Assembly: GCA_003574885.1 (NCBI GenBank)
Contig: PJFC01000004.1
Location: 248,001-312,000 of the forward strand
Length of the DNA stretch: 64,000 nucleotides
Direction of reading: 5' to 3'
Source: Geobacter sp.
GTDB lineage: Bacteria > Desulfobacterota > Desulfuromonadia > Geobacterales > Geobacteraceae
Position numbers and translations under genes: made by a program. The notes under the pieces were generated by a model. That model was given only the letters and a program-made list of their open reading frames with translations, made no database searches and was not told the DNA's origin. Positions 31,151 to 39,309 of this stretch are shown one piece after another (the stretch's first letter is position 1; the number at the start of each line of letters is the position of its first letter).

Positions 31151-31544
31151 GTTGCGGTGCCATCCCCCATCGGGAAGGGCTGCATAATGCGGCGGACAAA
31201 GAACACCCATTTGCGGAGTCCCATGCGTTGAAATGATGCCGATATTTGGTACTGTTAGATGTTAGTTCATCTCGGTATCTCCTTTGATTACAGGCAAAAA
31301 GTTTCTTATTCCCGTTGATTATAGTCAGAGTAAAAAAAAATTGACTATAAATTAAGCACGGAAGTGATTGCCAAGCCCGGTAAATTTGATTATTATTCTC
31401 TGCGGATTAAAAAATAGACACTGTGGGCCTTTCTGCACCAGGCAAATGGTCCGTATTGACCCAGGTCAAGGATTTCCCCTTCTGTTCATGCAAGTCTCAA
31501 TTCACCATAGTTCGCTGTAAATCAATCAGTTGCGAGGTTTTACC
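31151..31544. other. Gap before etfB with two operator-like inverted repeats
   Basis: TTATAGTCA...TGACTATAA spans 31319-31350, and TTGAC-CCAG-GTCAA lies at 31456-31469, about 75 bases before the etfB ATG. Both could bind dimeric regulators. No gene is seen. Confidence 0.4.
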
Positions 31545-32357
31545 ATGCAAATAGTCGCCTGCATCAAGCAGGTTCCCGATACGACCCAGGTTCAGATCGA
31601 TCCGGTGACGAACACTCTGGTGCGGGAAGGGATACCTTTCATCGTCAACCCCTACGACACCCATGCCCTTGAAGAGTCCCTGCGACTCAAGGACCGGTTC
31701 GGCTGCCGGGTGGCAGCCATCTCGATGGGGCCCCCCAACGCCGAGGCAACGCTCAGGAAGGCGCTGGCCCTGGGGGTAGACGAGGCGATTCTCCTCTCCG
31801 ACCGGGTCTTCGGTGGAGCCGATACCCTGGCTACCAGTAACGTCCTGGCGGCGGCAATCCGCAAACTCCATGAGCAGGAGGAGGTGGGGATCGTCCTCTG
31901 CGGCAAGCAGACGATTGACGGCGACACCGCCCAAGTAGGTCCTGGCATTGCCACCCGCCTTGGTTACACCCAGCTTACCCTCGTGGACCGGATAGAGCAT
32001 ATCGATCTGGAGAAACGGGTCATCCGGGTGCGCCGCAAACTTGAGGGGCGGCACGAAATCGTCGAGGCTCCCCTGCCGGTCCTGCTGACCGTGGTGCGGG
32101 AACTGAACCGCCCCCGCTACCCAACCGTCCCCCGGCGCCTGGAATCGGCCGATGCCGAGGTAAAGACCTGGAGCAACCAGATCATGCAGCTTCCCGAGCC
32201 GACCATCGGCCTGAAAGGCTCTCCTACCTGGGTGAGCCGGATATTCTCTCCCGAGCGGGACAAGGGGGAGATCATCGGCGACGGGGTGCACGACCCGGAT
32301 GGAACGGCGCAACTTCTCATCGACAAGCTGCTCAGCAAAGATTTGCTGGCGTTGTAA
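31545..32357 (+). CDS. etfB: Electron transfer flavoprotein beta subunit
   Basis: A 270-residue EtfB, normal length. The N-terminus is IVACIKQVPDTTQVQIDP, and the nucleotide-binding region VGIVLCGKQTIDGDTAQVGPGIAT and the recognition-loop area VIRVRRKLEGRHEIVEAPLPVLLTV are as expected. With EtfA it carries electrons from acyl-CoA or related dehydrogenases. The ATG at 31545 begins the conserved sequence; an in-frame upstream GTG or ATG is not needed. Downstream are EtfA (fused to a ferredoxin) and a membrane Fe-S oxidoreductase, which together make a route from flavin dehydrogenases to quinone. No acyl-CoA dehydrogenase gene is in the window. Confidence 0.95.
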   Translation: MQIVACIKQVPDTTQVQIDPVTNTLVREGIPFIVNPYDTHALEESLRLKDRFGCRVAAISMGPPNAEATLRKALALGVDEAILLSDRVFGGADTLATSNVLAAAIRKLHEQEEVGIVLCGKQTIDGDTAQVGPGIATRLGYTQLTLVDRIEHIDLEKRVIRVRRKLEGRHEIVEAPLPVLLTVVRELNRPRYPTVPRRLESADAEVKTWSNQIMQLPEPTIGLKGSPTWVSRIFSPERDKGEIIGDGVHDPDGTAQLLIDKLLSKDLLAL

Positions 32358-32364
32358 AGAAAAC

Positions 32365-32420
32365 GTGAAAAGTAAAAGGTGAAAGGTAAATAGCACAGAG
32401 TAGTCTTTTCACTTTTCACC
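32365..32420. repeat. Paired heptamer repeats in the etfB-etfA gap
   Basis: Purine tract GTGAAAA, GTAAAAG, GTGAAAG, GTAAATA (32365-32392) is followed by CTTTTCA, CTTTTCA (32405-32418). The tracts are complementary and can form a stem in the mRNA. Confidence 0.7.
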
Positions 32421-32444
32421 AAGATTTTTCCAAGGAAACCATCC

Positions 32445-33770
32445 ATGACCGAACCGAAGAAACCGCTGAAGAAACCCCGGGGCAAGGCGTGCCTGCTGGA
32501 GGGTAAATGCATCGCCTGCGGTGCCCGCTGCCAGAGCTCCTGTCCGGTGGATGCCATCGAGATGAACGAAGCGGGCGAGCCGATCATCAATGTTGAGAAA
32601 TGCATCGGCTGCGTCAAGTGCGTCAAGATCTGCCCGGCCCAGGCCATCGAGATGTTCTTCACCCCCGAGGAACAGAAGATCCTTGACGAAATCATGAAGC
32701 AGGGGGAGGCTCAAGCCCCTGAGGTGGACGAGGAAGACGCTGCCCTGGCGGAGAAGCTCTCCGCCTACAAGGGGGTCTGGGTCTTTGTCGAGCAGACGGA
32801 AGGGGAGCCGGCCAAGGTCTCCTGGGAGCTGTTAGGGAAGGGGAAGGAACTGGCGCGAGCGTTGGGATCGGAACTTGCCGCCATCGTCGTCGGCGAAAAC
32901 GTGGAACATCTCTGCCGCGAGGCATTCGCCCACGGGGCTGAAAAAGCCTACCTCATAGACGCTCCCGTCTTCAGATACTACCGTACCCAGGCCTATCTCA
33001 AGGCGATCACCCATCTGGTGGACACCTACAAACCCGAAGTCATCCTCATGGGGGCTACCGGCCTTGGCCGCGACCTGGCCGGTGCCGTCGCCACCGTGGT
33101 GGGGACCGGTCTCACCGCCGATTGCACCGGGCTCGCCATCGACGACAAGCACAACCTCATGCAGACCCGCCCCGCCTTCGGCGGCAACATCATGGCCACC
33201 ATCATGTGTGACAAGTTCCGTCCCCAGATGGCCACCGTCCGTCCCCACGTCATGCCCATGCCCGAGCGGCAGGAGGGGGCAGGCGGCGAAATCGTCCGGG
33301 AGAGCTGTCCGGTGAACGAGGAGGACATCCTCGTCAAGGTGTTGGAAATTATCAGCGACCGGAACAAGGACCAGGTGGACGTGGCAGGGGCCGATTTCAT
33401 CGTCTCCGGCGGGCGGGGCATGATGGGGAAAGAAAACTTCGCCATGCTCCAGGAACTGGCGGACGAGCTGGGAGGGGTTGTGGGTGCATCACGTTCCGCC
33501 GTCGACGCCGGCTGGATGCCCCAGGAGCGGCAGGTGGGACAGACCGGCAAGACGGTCCGCCCCAAGATCTACATCGCCTGCGGGATCAGTGGCGCCATCC
33601 AGCACCTGGTCGGTATGCAGGATTCGGACGTGGTCATTGCCATCAACCGGGACAAAGACGCCCCCATCTTCGAAGTGGCCACCTACGGTATCGTCGGTGA
33701 CCTGTTCAAAATAATTCCCGCCATCACCAAGCGGCTGCGGGAACTGAAACAGCAGAAAAACAGGGACTAG
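32445..33770 (+). CDS. etfA: Electron transfer flavoprotein alpha subunit with N-terminal 2[4Fe-4S] ferredoxin domain
   Basis: A 441-residue protein. A ferredoxin module occupies about 1-75. Cluster 1 has C22, C25, C29, C33 and cluster 2 has C53, C56, C59, C63. The EtfA N-domain follows (about 90-290). The FAD-binding domain at about 320-440 has SGGRGM, SRSAVDAGWMP, KIYIACGISGAIQH and INRDKDAPIFEVA(T)YGIVGD. Ferredoxin-fused EtfA proteins are typical of anaerobes and may link the flavin to an extra Fe-S electron path. Gene order etfB-etfA-CCG oxidoreductase suggests one operon, with heptamer-repeat-filled gaps on both sides. Confidence 0.95.
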   Translation: MTEPKKPLKKPRGKACLLEGKCIACGARCQSSCPVDAIEMNEAGEPIINVEKCIGCVKCVKICPAQAIEMFFTPEEQKILDEIMKQGEAQAPEVDEEDAALAEKLSAYKGVWVFVEQTEGEPAKVSWELLGKGKELARALGSELAAIVVGENVEHLCREAFAHGAEKAYLIDAPVFRYYRTQAYLKAITHLVDTYKPEVILMGATGLGRDLAGAVATVVGTGLTADCTGLAIDDKHNLMQTRPAFGGNIMATIMCDKFRPQMATVRPHVMPMPERQEGAGGEIVRESCPVNEEDILVKVLEIISDRNKDQVDVAGADFIVSGGRGMMGKENFAMLQELADELGGVVGASRSAVDAGWMPQERQVGQTGKTVRPKIYIACGISGAIQHLVGMQDSDVVIAINRDKDAPIFEVATYGIVGDLFKIIPAITKRLRELKQQKNRD

Positions 33771-33835
33771 GGGCTAGGGATTGGGGACTGGTAAAAAGCG
33801 GCAAGAGCCTTTGCCAGCCCCCAGCCTCCAGCCCC
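33763..33835. repeat. Paired heptamer repeats in the etfA-oxidoreductase gap
   Basis: GGGACTA, GGGGCTA, GGGATTG, GGGACTG (33763-33790) face CAGCCCC, CAGCCTC, CAGCCCC (33815-33835). Strict 7-base periodicity and opposite orientation are visible. Confidence 0.75.
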
Positions 33836-33859
33836 TTCCTAACTTTACGAGGAACAACC

Positions 33860-35848
33860 ATGACCACCAATCCAGCCATCTTCACCCCCCTGCTCATCGC
33901 CGCCGGCATCTTCTTCGTCTGGAGCTGCTACCGGCGTTTCAGCCTCGTTACCCTCGGCCGGCCGGAGGATCGTTTCGACCGCCTCGACCGCAGGATCGGG
34001 GACATGTTCCTCTATGCCTTCGGCCAGAAGCGGGTGGTGGCGAAACCATTCGGCATCAATCATTTCATCATCTTCTGGTCCTTCATGGTCCTGCTCCTCG
34101 CCAACGGCGAGTTCCTCGTGAAGGGGGTCATCCCGGCGCTCTCCCTGGCACTTCTTTCCGCACCCCTCTACCATGGTCTGCTGCTTGCCTTTGATCTGGT
34201 CTCCCTGCTGACACTCGCCGCCATCCTCCTTGCCTTTGCCCGCCGAATATTCTTCCCGCCGGCATACATGAGCACGGCCTACGTCAAGGCGCGCAGCGCG
34301 GATGGTTTTGTCATTCTCGTCTTCATCGCCCTTCTCATGCTTGCCTACTTCGGCCTGCACGGGGCGGAGATTGCCATGGGGAACGAGCCGGCAGCCGCGT
34401 TCATGCCGATATCATCCCAAATCGCCGGGGTTCTGGCTTCTTACCCCTCACTCCTCACCCCTCTCGCCTCGCTTTTCTGGTGGATACATGCCCTTGTCCT
34501 GCTTGCCTTCATCTGCTTTCTCCCCCACAGCAAGCACATGCACATACTGACCGCCATCCCAAACTGCTTCTTCGCCTCCCTGGAAAAACCGAACACCCAG
34601 CCACGGGAGGAATTTGTCAAGGGGGGAGAATTCGGCGTTGACAAGGTGGACAGCTTCACCTGGAAGGACCTGTTCGACAGTTTCTCCTGCACCGAATGCG
34701 GCCGCTGCCAGAGTGCCTGCCCGGCGGCCGCCACCGGCAAGTCCCTCAATCCCCGCCAGGTGATCCATGCCATCAAGACCAACCTGCTGGCCAACGGTCC
34801 GCTTCTGCAGCGGGGGGGAGCCCACGTCATTCCTCTTATCGGCGAGGAAGGGGAGGGGAGCAACACGGAGGAGACCATCTGGTCCTGCACCACCTGTGGC
34901 GCCTGCATGGAAGCCTGCCCGGTCCTCATTGAGCACATGCCGAAGATCATCAAGATGCGGCGGCATCTGGTAGAGATGGAGAGCCGGTTCCCCGAGGAGT
35001 TGCTCAATCTTTTCGAGAACATGGAACAGCGCTCCAACCCGTGGGGGATTGCTCCCTCCGAGAGGACCAAATGGTGCGCCACCATGGACATCAAGCCGTT
35101 CGAAAAAGGAGTGACGGAGTATCTCTTCTACATCGGCTGCGCTGGTACCTTCGACTCGCGAAGCAAGCAGGTGACTGTGGCGCTGGCCACTATCCTTGAT
35201 GCTGCCGGCGTTTCCTGGGGGATTCTGGGCAAGGAAGAGAAATGCTGCGGCGACAGCGTCCGGCGGCTAGGGAACGAGTTCGTCTTCGACAGGATGGCCA
35301 AGGAGAACGTTCAGCTCTTCCAGGAGAAGGGGGTCACCAAGGTCATCGTCCAGTGTCCCCACTGCTTCTCGACACTTAAAAACGACTACCGGCAGTACGG
35401 GCTGGAGCTTGAAGTGATCCATCACGGCGAGCTGATCGACCAACTCCTGGCGTCGGGGCGGCTGAAGCTGAACCGGCAGGTACAGGACCTGGGGAGTGTG
35501 CTTTTCCATGATTCCTGTTACCTGGGGCGGCACAATGACGTCTACGAGGCACCCCGCGATGTGCTACGTTCCGCCACCGGCCAGGCACCGCTGGAGATGG
35601 AGCGCAGCCGCAACAACTCCTTCTGCTGCGGAGCGGGCGGGGGGAGGATGTGGATGGAAGAGTTCAGCGGTGAGCGTATCAACCTGAACCGGGTCGATGA
35701 GGCGCTCCGGCAGAACGCGGACACCATCTGTACCGCCTGCCCCTACTGCATGACCATGTTCGAGGATGGGCTCAAGGACCGCCAGGCGGGCCAGACCAAG
35801 GTGCGGGACATCGCCGAAGTCGTGGCTGAAGGGCTCAGACCGGTGTGA
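33860..35848 (+). CDS. Membrane Fe-S oxidoreductase, EtfAB:(mena)quinone oxidoreductase-like (CCG domains)
   Basis: A 662-residue protein. An N-terminal membrane domain with about five or six hydrophobic segments (10-230) resembles a nitrate-reductase-gamma/haem-b type domain. Two [4Fe-4S] motifs follow: C277, C280, C283, C287 and C343, C346, C349, C353. Two CCG (HdrB-like DUF224) domains come last, with KCCGDSVRR, HDSCYLGRHND and FCCGAGGGRMW. The family next to etfBA is the EMO type, which passes electrons from EtfAB to menaquinone, as shown biochemically in fatty-acid-degrading anaerobes (established knowledge). The ATG follows GAGGAAC. It is the last gene of the etf cluster. Confidence 0.88.
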   Translation: MTTNPAIFTPLLIAAGIFFVWSCYRRFSLVTLGRPEDRFDRLDRRIGDMFLYAFGQKRVVAKPFGINHFIIFWSFMVLLLANGEFLVKGVIPALSLALLSAPLYHGLLLAFDLVSLLTLAAILLAFARRIFFPPAYMSTAYVKARSADGFVILVFIALLMLAYFGLHGAEIAMGNEPAAAFMPISSQIAGVLASYPSLLTPLASLFWWIHALVLLAFICFLPHSKHMHILTAIPNCFFASLEKPNTQPREEFVKGGEFGVDKVDSFTWKDLFDSFSCTECGRCQSACPAAATGKSLNPRQVIHAIKTNLLANGPLLQRGGAHVIPLIGEEGEGSNTEETIWSCTTCGACMEACPVLIEHMPKIIKMRRHLVEMESRFPEELLNLFENMEQRSNPWGIAPSERTKWCATMDIKPFEKGVTEYLFYIGCAGTFDSRSKQVTVALATILDAAGVSWGILGKEEKCCGDSVRRLGNEFVFDRMAKENVQLFQEKGVTKVIVQCPHCFSTLKNDYRQYGLELEVIHHGELIDQLLASGRLKLNRQVQDLGSVLFHDSCYLGRHNDVYEAPRDVLRSATGQAPLEMERSRNNSFCCGAGGGRMWMEEFSGERINLNRVDEALRQNADTICTACPYCMTMFEDGLKDRQAGQTKVRDIAEVVAEGLRPV

Positions 35849-35969: not shown

Positions 35970-36680
35970 GTGCTGATTGTCGTCCAGAACGACCCGGAAG
36001 TTCCCTTCGGCACCTACGCCGGATACTTGGAGGAGTCGGCGGTGCCGTACCGCACCGTTCATCCCTACCGTGGGGAGACGTTGCCGGAGGCCTGTGGTGT
36101 TGCCGCTGCCATCGTCCTCGGCGGTGCCATGGGGGTGCATGACACCGACCGTCACCCCTTTCTCTACGACGTTAAACGCTTCATCGCGGGGATGGTGGCA
36201 CGGGAGGTGCCGTTCCTCGGTATCTGCCTGGGGGGGCAGCTCCTGGCAGACGTGCTCGGTTCCACGGTCACCTGCAACTCCCCCCACCGCGAAAAAGGGA
36301 CGCTGCCGGTCACCCTAACGGAACAGGGTATGGAGGACCGCCTGTTTGATGGGATGGCGCGGGAGTTCGTGAGCTTCCAGTGGCACGATGACAGTTTCCT
36401 CGTCCCCGAAGGGGGAATTCATCTCGCGTCGTCACCGGCCTGTCCCGGCCAGGCGTTTCGTTACGGTCCCGTGGCCTATGGCACCCAGTTCCACCCGGAG
36501 GTGAACCGGCAGATCATCGCCGACTGGAGCAGCTGGCGCCCCGCAACGGCGGCACGCGCCGAACGATTCCTGTCCGACTTCGCTGCCCGGCGGACGAAGT
36601 ACGACGCAGCCTCCCGTATGATACTGTTCAACTTTCTCCGCATTGCCCGCCTTGTTGAATCTCGTTCTCTTCGATCCTGA
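35970..36680 (+). CDS. Class I glutamine amidotransferase (GMP-synthase-like)
   Basis: A 236-residue free-standing class I GATase. The nucleophile elbow is FLGICLGGQLLA with C86. The catalytic His-Glu pair is in TQFHPEV (about residues 173-179), and an upstream oxyanion Gly motif is in VLGGAMGVHD. Length and motifs match proteins annotated as GMP synthase-like GATases, some acting as gamma-glutamyl hydrolases. Partner and substrate are unclear. The GTG at 35970 is chosen because CAGAGGAGA sits just upstream and the preceding in-frame residues would be read from the terminator region. Confidence 0.88.
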   Translation: MLIVVQNDPEVPFGTYAGYLEESAVPYRTVHPYRGETLPEACGVAAAIVLGGAMGVHDTDRHPFLYDVKRFIAGMVAREVPFLGICLGGQLLADVLGSTVTCNSPHREKGTLPVTLTEQGMEDRLFDGMAREFVSFQWHDDSFLVPEGGIHLASSPACPGQAFRYGPVAYGTQFHPEVNRQIIADWSSWRPATAARAERFLSDFAARRTKYDAASRMILFNFLRIARLVESRSLRS

Positions 36681-36754
36681 AAAATGCCGTTTTGGGTTGA
36701 TTGTTTTCCCCGTTTTCTCTGGTACTCTTGGGTACCATGAAAGGGAGGTGTTCC

Positions 36755-37240
36755 ATGCGCAAATCCGTCGTCAAGGGACTCTTTACCTCGGCGCTTGTGG
36801 CCTTGGAGAGCATTGGTACCCACGCCTTGGAAGTGGGGCGAAAGGCGCCGATCTTTGAGGCCGTGTCCACAAGAGGCTCCATCCGGCTGGCCGATTTCCA
36901 GGGTAAAAAGAATGTGGTACTTATGTTCTACTTCGCCGATTTCACTCCGGTCTGAACAGGGGAAATGCAGGCTTTTCAAAGGGATCTCGACAAATTTGAA
37001 AAGCTCAACGCCCAGGTCCTGGGCGTCAGTCCCGACAGCATTGCAACCCACGAGGAATTCAGCACGAAGAACGGCCTCCAGTACCCTCTGGTCGCCGATG
37101 AGTCGGGGGAGGTTCGGAAGCAGTATGCTCCCGGCCGGGTTACGTACATCATCGACAAGGAAGGGGTGATCCGGTTCATCCAGCCGGGTGTGCCGGACAA
37201 CGGAGTGCTGTTGACGGAACTGGAGAAGCTGGAAGAGTGA
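36755..37240 (+). CDS. AhpC/TSA-type peroxiredoxin, probable selenoprotein (in-frame UGA as Sec67)
   Basis: Reading through TGA at 36953-36955 gives one 161-residue peroxiredoxin. Residues around the codon read FADFTPV-U-TGEMQAFQRD, and typical peroxiredoxins have a cysteine at this exact place (F-x-PVCT-x-E). The peroxidatic residue would thus be selenocysteine. Both sides are in the same frame and both are conserved-looking: LADFQGKKNVVLMFYF upstream, LGVSPDS, YPLVADESGEVRKQY and YIIDKEGVIRFI downstream. GGGAGG precedes ATG 36755. It should reduce peroxides using thiol donors. A premature stop is the alternative. Selenocysteine machinery (selA, selB, selC, selD) is not in the window. The hairpin needed after UGA was not modelled. 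Confidence 0.85.
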
Positions 37241-37272
37241 AAAGCTATGGCTTTATTGAACGAATCAGGGAG

Positions 37273-37303
37273 AGGCCGGCGGATAGATATTCGCCGGCCT
37301 TTT
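37273..37303. terminator. Rho-independent terminator, bidirectional
   Basis: AGGCCGGCG and CGCCGGCCTTTT around ten bases, between convergent genes. Confidence 0.88.
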
Positions 37304-37323
37304 CTTATATTGCTGGAGGATGG

Positions 37324-39309
37324 TCAGATTCTCACCCGGATGGGGAGGATGACCGTGGTGATACCGTCCCACTGGAGGCGGCGCTGGATGGCGAAGGCAG
37401 TCTCGTTATGGAGCATCTTGTGGTAGAACTTCTCCAGCCGGAAGGTGAGCTGACCGGTGAAGACGGTGGAACGGGAGAATTCCTCCCGAATCGTCTTGCA
37501 CTGGGTTACGGCGCTTTCCACCACATCAGTTCCCACATCCAACCGGTAGTCGGCGGCGAAGCCGAGGCGGCGGGCCAGCTCTACGTACTTTTCGAGCCCC
37601 TTCCTGACCGAATCCTCCAGCGCTTCTACCTCCTGCGCCCCCTTGAAGGAACCGGAGTCGATTACCGCTACCGAGACAAAGATAATGTTCTTGTAGGTCT
37701 TGGGGAAGGTGGTGACGATGGAGAGGAGCGTATGAACGCCAAAGCCGCTGTAGCCGGAGACGAGCTGGATGGCGGTGCTTTCGTTCGGCTTTACCGGGTC
37801 GGTGTTGACCGGGCCTGAGGTGGGAAAGTCGAGGAGGGTCTCGTCGAGCTGGGCGACCCCCTTGCGCACCGTGACGTAATGGCTATTGATGAGATAGCAG
37901 AGATAGATCACCACCGACGTAATGACAATGGTCATCCATCCCCCTTCGGCAAATTTTTCCACCGTCGTGATAACGAGAATGGTGACGCAGAGGGTCAGAC
38001 CCACCAGGTGTACGGCGAGGTGCTGCATCCATTTCGGGTCTTTGTGGCGCCGTTTGAGGAAGAAGCGGGACATCCCCAACTGGGAGAGGGAGAAGGTTAT
38101 GAAGACGTTGATGGAGTACATGACTACCAGGGCAGAAACCGATCCGCCGGTATAGAACAGTAGAGCAATAGCGGATATCCCCATCAGTAGAATGCCGTTA
38201 CGCATGGTGAGCCGCTCGGAGAGGGCGGCGAAGCGGTGGGGGAACCAGGAGTCAATCGCCATGTTTGCCATGACCCGCGGGCCGTCGACGAAGCCGGCTT
38301 GGGCGGCGACCAGGAGGAGTGCCCCCTCGGAGAAGATGGTTACGAAGGCGATCAGATTCCCCATTGGCCAGCCGGAAAAGAGGGTGTCGGCTACGACTGC
38401 GTTGAGGGTCTTTCCTTCCACCGGCTTCACGGCTAGGAGCAGGTAGCAGAGCAGGATGAGTGAAGCAGTAAAGGCGAGCGATGTAGCCATGTAGACCATG
38501 GTCCGCTTACCGGTCTGCACCCGCGGTTCGCGCATAATCTGCAGGCCGTTGGATATCGCCTCGATCCCGGTGTAGGTGCCCCCCCCAAGAGAGTAGGCGC
38601 GCAGGAAGAGGAGGATCATGCCGATTACACCAATGGACGAAACATCGTGGTGGATGCCGGCACTGAAGTTGTTCACGACAGGGGCGAATTGGTCGGTATG
38701 GGTGAACACCCCATAGAAGAGCATGACGACGTGGGTTGCCACGAAGACAATGAAGATTGGTGCCAGCACCGTGACCGATTCCTTTACCCCGCGGACGTTG
38801 AGGACGATCAGTACAATGGTGAGGATGCAGGCGACCGGGACCTTGTAATGGTGGAAGTAGACCGGCAGGTAGCTGAAAATAGCGTCGCAGCAGGAGGCGA
38901 TGGAGATAGTGATGGTCATTACGTAGTCCACCAGCAGTGCGCTTCCCGACACCAGCCCCGATTTTTCTCCGAGCAGGTGGGTGGCGACGATGTATCCACC
39001 CCCGCCATTGGGGAAGTGCTCTATGATTCGGGAGTAGGCGTAGGAGATGATAAAGACTGTTATGGCCATGACCACGGCGAGCAGCAGTGCCAGGTAGGTG
39101 TGTTCACTGAGAGCTTTGAACGCCTCCTCTGGACCGTACGCCGAGGAGGAGAGGCCGTCGGCGCCGAGCCCGATCCAGGCGAGCACCGGGATCAGGGACA
39201 TCTTGTGGAACAGGTGGGGGTCCTTGATTTGTTTGGGAGCGCCGATGATGGCGCGCCAGATACGGACGAAGATACCGGGTTTTTCTTCTTCTGCGATATT
39301 ACCGTTCAT
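37324..39309 (-). CDS. APC-superfamily permease, KimA-like K+ transporter
   Basis: A 661-residue permease with about 12 membrane segments and a soluble C-terminal domain (about 500-661). The N-terminus has GLGADGLSSSAYGPEEAF, like KimA (YdaO) high-affinity potassium importers of the APC superfamily. Start ATG 39309 follows AGGGAG; an upstream start at 39357 is less likely. The leader carries a c-di-AMP riboswitch (39430-39600) with its own terminator, as known for kimA/ydaO in Bacillus. Together these suggest a potassium or osmolyte transporter shut off when c-di-AMP is high. An amino acid permease role cannot be excluded. Confidence 0.82.
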   Translation of the reverse strand: MNGNIAEEEKPGIFVRIWRAIIGAPKQIKDPHLFHKMSLIPVLAWIGLGADGLSSSAYGPEEAFKALSEHTYLALLLAVVMAITVFIISYAYSRIIEHFPNGGGGYIVATHLLGEKSGLVSGSALLVDYVMTITISIASCCDAIFSYLPVYFHHYKVPVACILTIVLIVLNVRGVKESVTVLAPIFIVFVATHVVMLFYGVFTHTDQFAPVVNNFSAGIHHDVSSIGVIGMILLFLRAYSLGGGTYTGIEAISNGLQIMREPRVQTGKRTMVYMATSLAFTASLILLCYLLLAVKPVEGKTLNAVVADTLFSGWPMGNLIAFVTIFSEGALLLVAAQAGFVDGPRVMANMAIDSWFPHRFAALSERLTMRNGILLMGISAIALLFYTGGSVSALVVMYSINVFITFSLSQLGMSRFFLKRRHKDPKWMQHLAVHLVGLTLCVTILVITTVEKFAEGGWMTIVITSVVIYLCYLINSHYVTVRKGVAQLDETLLDFPTSGPVNTDPVKPNESTAIQLVSGYSGFGVHTLLSIVTTFPKTYKNIIFVSVAVIDSGSFKGAQEVEALEDSVRKGLEKYVELARRLGFAADYRLDVGTDVVESAVTQCKTIREEFSRSTVFTGQLTFRLEKFYHKMLHNETAFAIQRRLQWDGITTVILPIRVRI

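Follow-up and report, generated by a model that had tools for sequence, protein, structure and literature searches.

A cysteine-free peroxiredoxin of Geobacter with an in-frame UGA, most probably read as selenocysteine, at the peroxidatic position

Peroxiredoxins with selenocysteine (Sec) in a TxxU motif have been described several times. The accessible part of a 2006 bacterial survey (PMC1794560), with 12 such sequences in the survey, names a peroxiredoxin among the selenoproteins of Geobacter metallireducens, and that of a Sargasso Sea survey (PMC1088965) gives 43 selenoprotein peroxiredoxin sequences. The TxxU selenoprotein peroxiredoxin is listed again in the available sections of a 2022 paper (PMC9312934) and of a 2026 review (PMC13188914); the latter also cites a Sec-peroxiredoxin from Eubacterium acidaminophilum and calls PxxxTxxU highly conserved. 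In a 2007 figure legend, Gmet rows appear for a TXXU and a UXXC family. Sec-peroxiredoxin (TxxU) is an already known family, to which the gene reported here adds a member. It lies in the window, by which we mean the whole stretch of 64,000 nucleotides analysed. Its product resembles the known TxxU peroxiredoxins in the AhpC/TSA domain, in predicted Sec at the peroxidatic position and in a predicted bacterial SECIS directly past the UGA; in contrast to the PxxxTxxU motif as it appears in the accessible part of the 2026 review, the proline is missing in the window's clade. The likeness to the G. metallireducens peroxiredoxin is drawn from the listing in the 2006 survey, as far as that text was available.

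Among known proteins, the 1-Cys peroxiredoxin AhpE of Mycobacterium tuberculosis (5id2, 1xvw) is like the window protein in fold and, probably, in a single-chalcogen mechanism, but has Cys in place of Sec and 31% identity. Bcp1 of Sulfolobus solfataricus (3drn) is no selenoprotein, and in the chain that was crystallised the aligned residue is Ser. The peroxiredoxin domain is also common to the window protein and PrxU, the thioredoxin-dependent peroxiredoxin (NF040737) that we take to be the Sec protein of Eubacterium acidaminophilum; the window protein scores 59.5 bits against NF040737, below the curated cut-off of 270.

The gene and its start are laid out as follows.

36743..36749, + strand: probable ribosome-binding site GGGAGGT, 5 nt ahead of the ATG, read directly in the sequence
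36755..37240, + strand: gene read as a selenoprotein peroxiredoxin (161 aa, Sec67), stop codon included, from the read-through frame, homology, conservation and selection
36953..36955, + strand: UGA codon at the peroxidatic position, read as selenocysteine, codon and residue 67, placed by alignment

The frame opens with the ATG at 36755 and closes with a TGA at 37238-37240. A second in-frame ATG, at 36737, lies 5' of GGGAGGT, and one relative (L067) is without Met in the corresponding upstream stretch. Conceptual translation under table 11 halts at codon 67; reading through it places Sec67 in the context FYFADFTPV-U-TGEMQAF, in a protein whose Cys count is 0. A sequence-only reading of this DNA had put the UGA exactly on the peroxidatic cysteine (TPV-U-T). 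Indeed, when 88 peroxiredoxins are aligned, the catalytic column is U in 45 rows (the window and 44 others with UGA) and C in 43, and the comparison of homologues which that reading had proposed thus returns Cys or Sec at the position in 88/88. Left out of these counts and of the tree were L091 (TAG inside) and L033-L044, 12 weaker, mostly thioredoxin-like loci, 9 with Cys and 3 with Val in the aligned column.

Homology also spans the UGA with the frame unchanged, as had been claimed: the Pfam AhpC-TSA match (PF00578) of the read-through protein covers residues 27-141 (E 6.2e-33; 113.8 bits, over the curated cut-off of 26), and Redoxin matches at E 1.2e-16. With NCBIfam peroxiredoxin models the whole protein reaches 2e-21, and its separate halves merely 7.6e-6 and 1.7e-7; none of these models exceeds its curated cut-off with the whole read-through protein. 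The in-frame UGA at the peroxidatic position is a real observation and is confirmed. The best sequence match among solved structures was Bcp1 (3drn; 3.8e-22), also the top Foldseek match among solved structures; the next two structure matches listed, 5enu and 2ywn, both have Cys at the aligned position. AlphaFold2, run on the window protein together with 20 relatives, gave a model of mean pLDDT 87.8 (residues 1-22 below 50) that superimposes on 5id2 with Z 23.6 (1.4 Å over 140 residues) and on 3drn with Z 23.3 (1.2 Å over 137 residues). Its predicted fold runs continuously through the UGA site. This bears on the view that translation stops at the UGA and resumes from ATG 36965, which does open a 91-codon ORF, to yield two short proteins. 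The catalytic residue would be in neither product, the model's fold crosses the site, and the codon is UGA in 23/23 rows of the window's clade, which makes a restart very unlikely.

We then compared the locus across genomes. In 147 genomes, the window's own included, the 21 best places all have a TGA inside, and all 21 loci, once extracted and aligned, have the UGA in the same column, with no cysteine in the frame read. The 20 closest loci, from the 146 other genomes, have 36-89% identity with the window protein. A wider search, of 395 genomes in the phylum, likewise has a TGA inside each of the 28 top-scoring places (at least 127 bits); below 127 bits, places with and without stops are mixed. 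These 28 comprise 22 loci new to the set, every one with U in the column, 3 repeats and 3 places given no locus. Duplicates were dropped before counting (L001-L003 and L066-L068 are identical contigs; L095, L096 and L100 repeat L068, L065 and L082). For nine pairs, dN/dS was 0.076-0.164 upstream of the UGA and 0.066-0.220 downstream; purifying selection acts on both sides of it. The halt of table 11 translation at codon 67 is what a pseudogene or a sequencing error, a premature stop in an ordinary peroxiredoxin gene, would produce. However, a random stop or sequencing error is not expected to recur in the same column of the 20 closest loci of other genomes, with low dN/dS past it, and the stem-loop described below is constrained within the family. 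We regard this explanation as highly improbable.

The host genome (3.47 Mb, given as 100% complete) holds the genes for selenocysteine that the sequence-only reading had proposed to look for. There is one copy of selA over the curated cut-off (616.7 bits against 267.9), a selB of 640 aa over its cut-off, a selD over its cut-off with one in-frame UGA of its own (context KAAGUAAKL), and a tRNA-Sec above the gathering score with anticodon UCA. The UGA of selD falls at what is presumably the usual Sec/Cys site of SelD. Together with the Cys/Sec homologues, these genes support the selenoprotein reading. The locus is a clean case, in which a gene is broken by table 11 at an internal UGA and every genomic requirement for selenocysteine is present. 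One could also imagine that a suppressor or a changed code has the UGA read as Cys or Trp, and Cys does stand at this position in 43/43 of the non-Sec rows. The same gene, however, terminates with TGA, and a complete Sec system, tRNA-Sec included, is encoded in the genome; insertion of another amino acid is extremely improbable.

Since the machinery is widespread within the group (selA in 125/147 of the genomes searched), the presence of selA is necessary and not telling: it was found in 20/21 genomes with a UGA peroxiredoxin versus 105/126 others (p 0.14). Because TGA also occurs in lower-scoring places of both genome searches, some of those 126 may carry other UGA peroxiredoxins. The one genome of the 21 in which selA is absent, in a search with E up to 0.001, is G013; tRNA-Sec was not found at E 1e-9 in G013 and G016 among the same 21. 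Both hold a UGA peroxiredoxin of the sister subfamily. The one in G013 (L084, G013:C23:11760-12203) sits in a genome given as 100% complete, in 170 contigs; an assembly gap, a foreign contig or a recent loss of the Sec system are the alternatives for its occurrence there alongside neither selA nor tRNA-Sec.

Directly past the UGA lies a candidate decoding signal.

36970..37005, + strand: predicted bacterial SECIS stem-loop, arms 36970-36980 and 36995-37005, loop 36981-36994 with GGG first

The element has an 11-bp stem, a 14-nt loop, 25 nt from UGA to loop and a folding energy of -11.1 kcal/mol. A hairpin had been expected within about 40 bases of the UGA; it is present, and spans nucleotides +15 to +50, slightly beyond that limit. 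A 43-nt fold gave no hairpin (z +1.74) and had cut away the 3' arm, and longer stretches were folded for that reason. Across 17 ungapped orthologues, 16 of them distinct, the stem keeps the same register with 89.3% of 224 cells paired, and six slid controls all score below the true register. Both-side changes occur in four pairs and 7 cells, versus 2.3 in shuffles (0/500 as high); 4 of the 7 cells belong to one apical pair, further pair types are not above shuffles (98/500), and the consensus that RNAalifold itself proposes contains 10 pairs, of which one shows a both-side, compensatory change. The covariation of the stem is modest. Codon choice in the stem is also constrained: among same-residue pairs, an identical synonym is used in 0.84 at the 7 scored stem codons versus 0.56 elsewhere (one-sided p 0.002), and the codon for Phe +7 is TTT in 17/17, yet GC3 is at least 0.73 in 15/17 genes. 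The window's hairpin is not more stable than shuffles (z -0.18, 87/200 equally good) or synonymous shuffles (z -0.62, 129/500 equally good). The energy z against synonymous shuffles is negative in 21/21 loci (mean -1.70), a tally of related rows to which no probability attaches.

The SECIS model set out in the accessible part of the 2026 review (PMC13188914) has a spacing of 16-37 nt, G at loop positions 1-2, an MFE of -7.5 kcal/mol or lower, an upper stem of 4-16 bp and an apical loop of 3-9 nt; that text adds that some putative SECIS elements lie outside the model. The window agrees with it in spacing, GG, energy and stem length, and departs from it solely in the apical loop (14 nt versus 3-9 nt). 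The full model fits 10/21 loci, and 17/21 if loops of up to 14 nt are allowed. Synonymous shuffles satisfy it in 0 to 73 of 200 cases depending on the locus (0-36%), among them 29/200 for the window, which itself does not. Scanning 36500-37400 against Rfam, at E values of up to 10, gave no match.

Taken together, we conclude that the gene almost certainly encodes a selenocysteine-containing, cysteine-free peroxiredoxin of thioredoxin fold, with the UGA decoded as Sec67 via SelB and the stem-loop. Decoding by SelB is inferred from the gene set and the conserved stem-loop, both of them features of sequence. SelB-GTP with Sec-tRNA(UCA) would bind the stem-loop, whose loop starts 25 nt past the UGA, and the ribosome would put Sec at codon 67 with no termination. 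Judging from the chemistry of the family, Thr64 and Arg128 would hold the Sec67 selenolate, which would attack H2O2 or an organic peroxide and become a selenenic acid. The resolving cysteine of 2-Cys peroxiredoxins is absent, the window protein having no Cys. Because the protein contains no second Cys or Sec, an outside reductant would be needed to restore the selenenic acid, in a one-Sec mechanism.

Two further positions of the active site are of interest.

36932..36934, + strand: codon for Phe60, which replaces the motif proline (PxxxTxxC/U), from the 88-row alignment
37136..37138, + strand: codon for the conserved active-site Arg128, from the alignment

Of the peroxiredoxin active-site residues, Thr64 (three before Sec67) and Arg128 are present. 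Seven residues before Sec, the window's clade has Phe, Tyr or Ile in 23/23 rows, versus proline in 22/22 of the other Sec rows and 43/43 of the Cys rows (65/65). In a tree of the 88 rows (135 columns) the 23 Sec rows that include the window form one clade (support 100/98), 20 other Sec rows form a second (support 100/100), and neither contains a Cys row. The tree has 3 Cys/Sec changes, with the long Cys rows L124 and L022 joining between the Sec clades, perhaps misplaced; Cys may have changed to Sec once or several times. The second clade is a Sec-only subfamily (L082-L085, L102 and L105-L119) with a motif like FFPAAFTPVUTGEMEGHQRNL, in which the proline is kept; 19/20 of its rows have a strongly hydrophobic N-terminal segment (2.15 or more) at the start chosen by the script, and L102 has it upstream of the start. 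Two more distant loci, L120 (TGGU) and L121 (TPVU), have the UGA at the catalytic position and fall outside both Sec clades, possibly as separate Cys-to-Sec changes.

The clade-wide loss of the proline is what may surprise a specialist. In the accessible part of a structural paper on Plasmodium Prx6 (PMC3337327), the conserved proline is described as a barrier to solvent. We found no mention of its loss in the available portions of PMC1794560, PMC1242214, PMC1914089, PMC1088965, PMC9312934, PMC13188914 and PMC3337327. The swap is seen here solely on a Sec background, so selenocysteine may relax or alter the demands that fix the proline in cysteine peroxiredoxins. Extra C or U is found in 2/23 rows of the clade, as a Cys within the signal-peptide-like segment of L099 and as a UGA 5' of the likely start of L078. 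As a tentative and rather doubtful reading, the window protein would belong to a selenium-only clade with an active site rebuilt around Sec (proline to Phe, Tyr or Ile, other domain cysteines lost, no cysteine version known); it might act outside the cytoplasm, and its reductant might not be cytoplasmic thioredoxin.

Work outside the cytoplasm is thinkable because more distant members start with signal-peptide-like segments, at the place of an extension in the window protein.

36755..36826, + strand: N-terminal extension, about 24 aa, where more distant relatives carry a signal peptide; weakly hydrophobic in the window protein

By best 11-residue Kyte-Doolittle mean this extension scores 1.06-1.82 across the window protein and the 16 orthologues nearest to it, and five rows of its clade (L097, L098, L099, L101 and L103) have signal-peptide-like N-termini with 2.45-3.20. 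Judging from these profiles, the window protein could be exported.

A further element lies 3' of the gene.

37267..37306, + strand: very stable hairpin, U-rich on its 3' side and probably an intrinsic terminator (-29.9 kcal/mol, z -7.39, in a fold of 37265-37310)

A pattern scan of 36500-37450 listed no terminator and one promoter-like site, 3' of the gene. The next gene, an amino-acid permease homologue, is on the opposite strand. With this hairpin 3' of it and the next gene on the other strand, the peroxiredoxin gene probably closes its transcript or stands in it alone. The hairpin sits between two convergent genes and could thus be a two-way terminator. Neighbourhoods were compared for 6/20 relatives: flanking genes are common to the window and the same-genus L128 only, L130 and L131 have two genes in common with each other, and no partner gene recurs beside the window's gene, so the neighbourhood names no electron donor. 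Elsewhere in the window, 31530-35848 holds a gene for an electron transfer flavoprotein beta-like protein and one for an alpha protein that has a 4Fe-4S domain at its N-terminus, and after them a CCG/4Fe-4S protein that, by eye, has a membrane-bound look.
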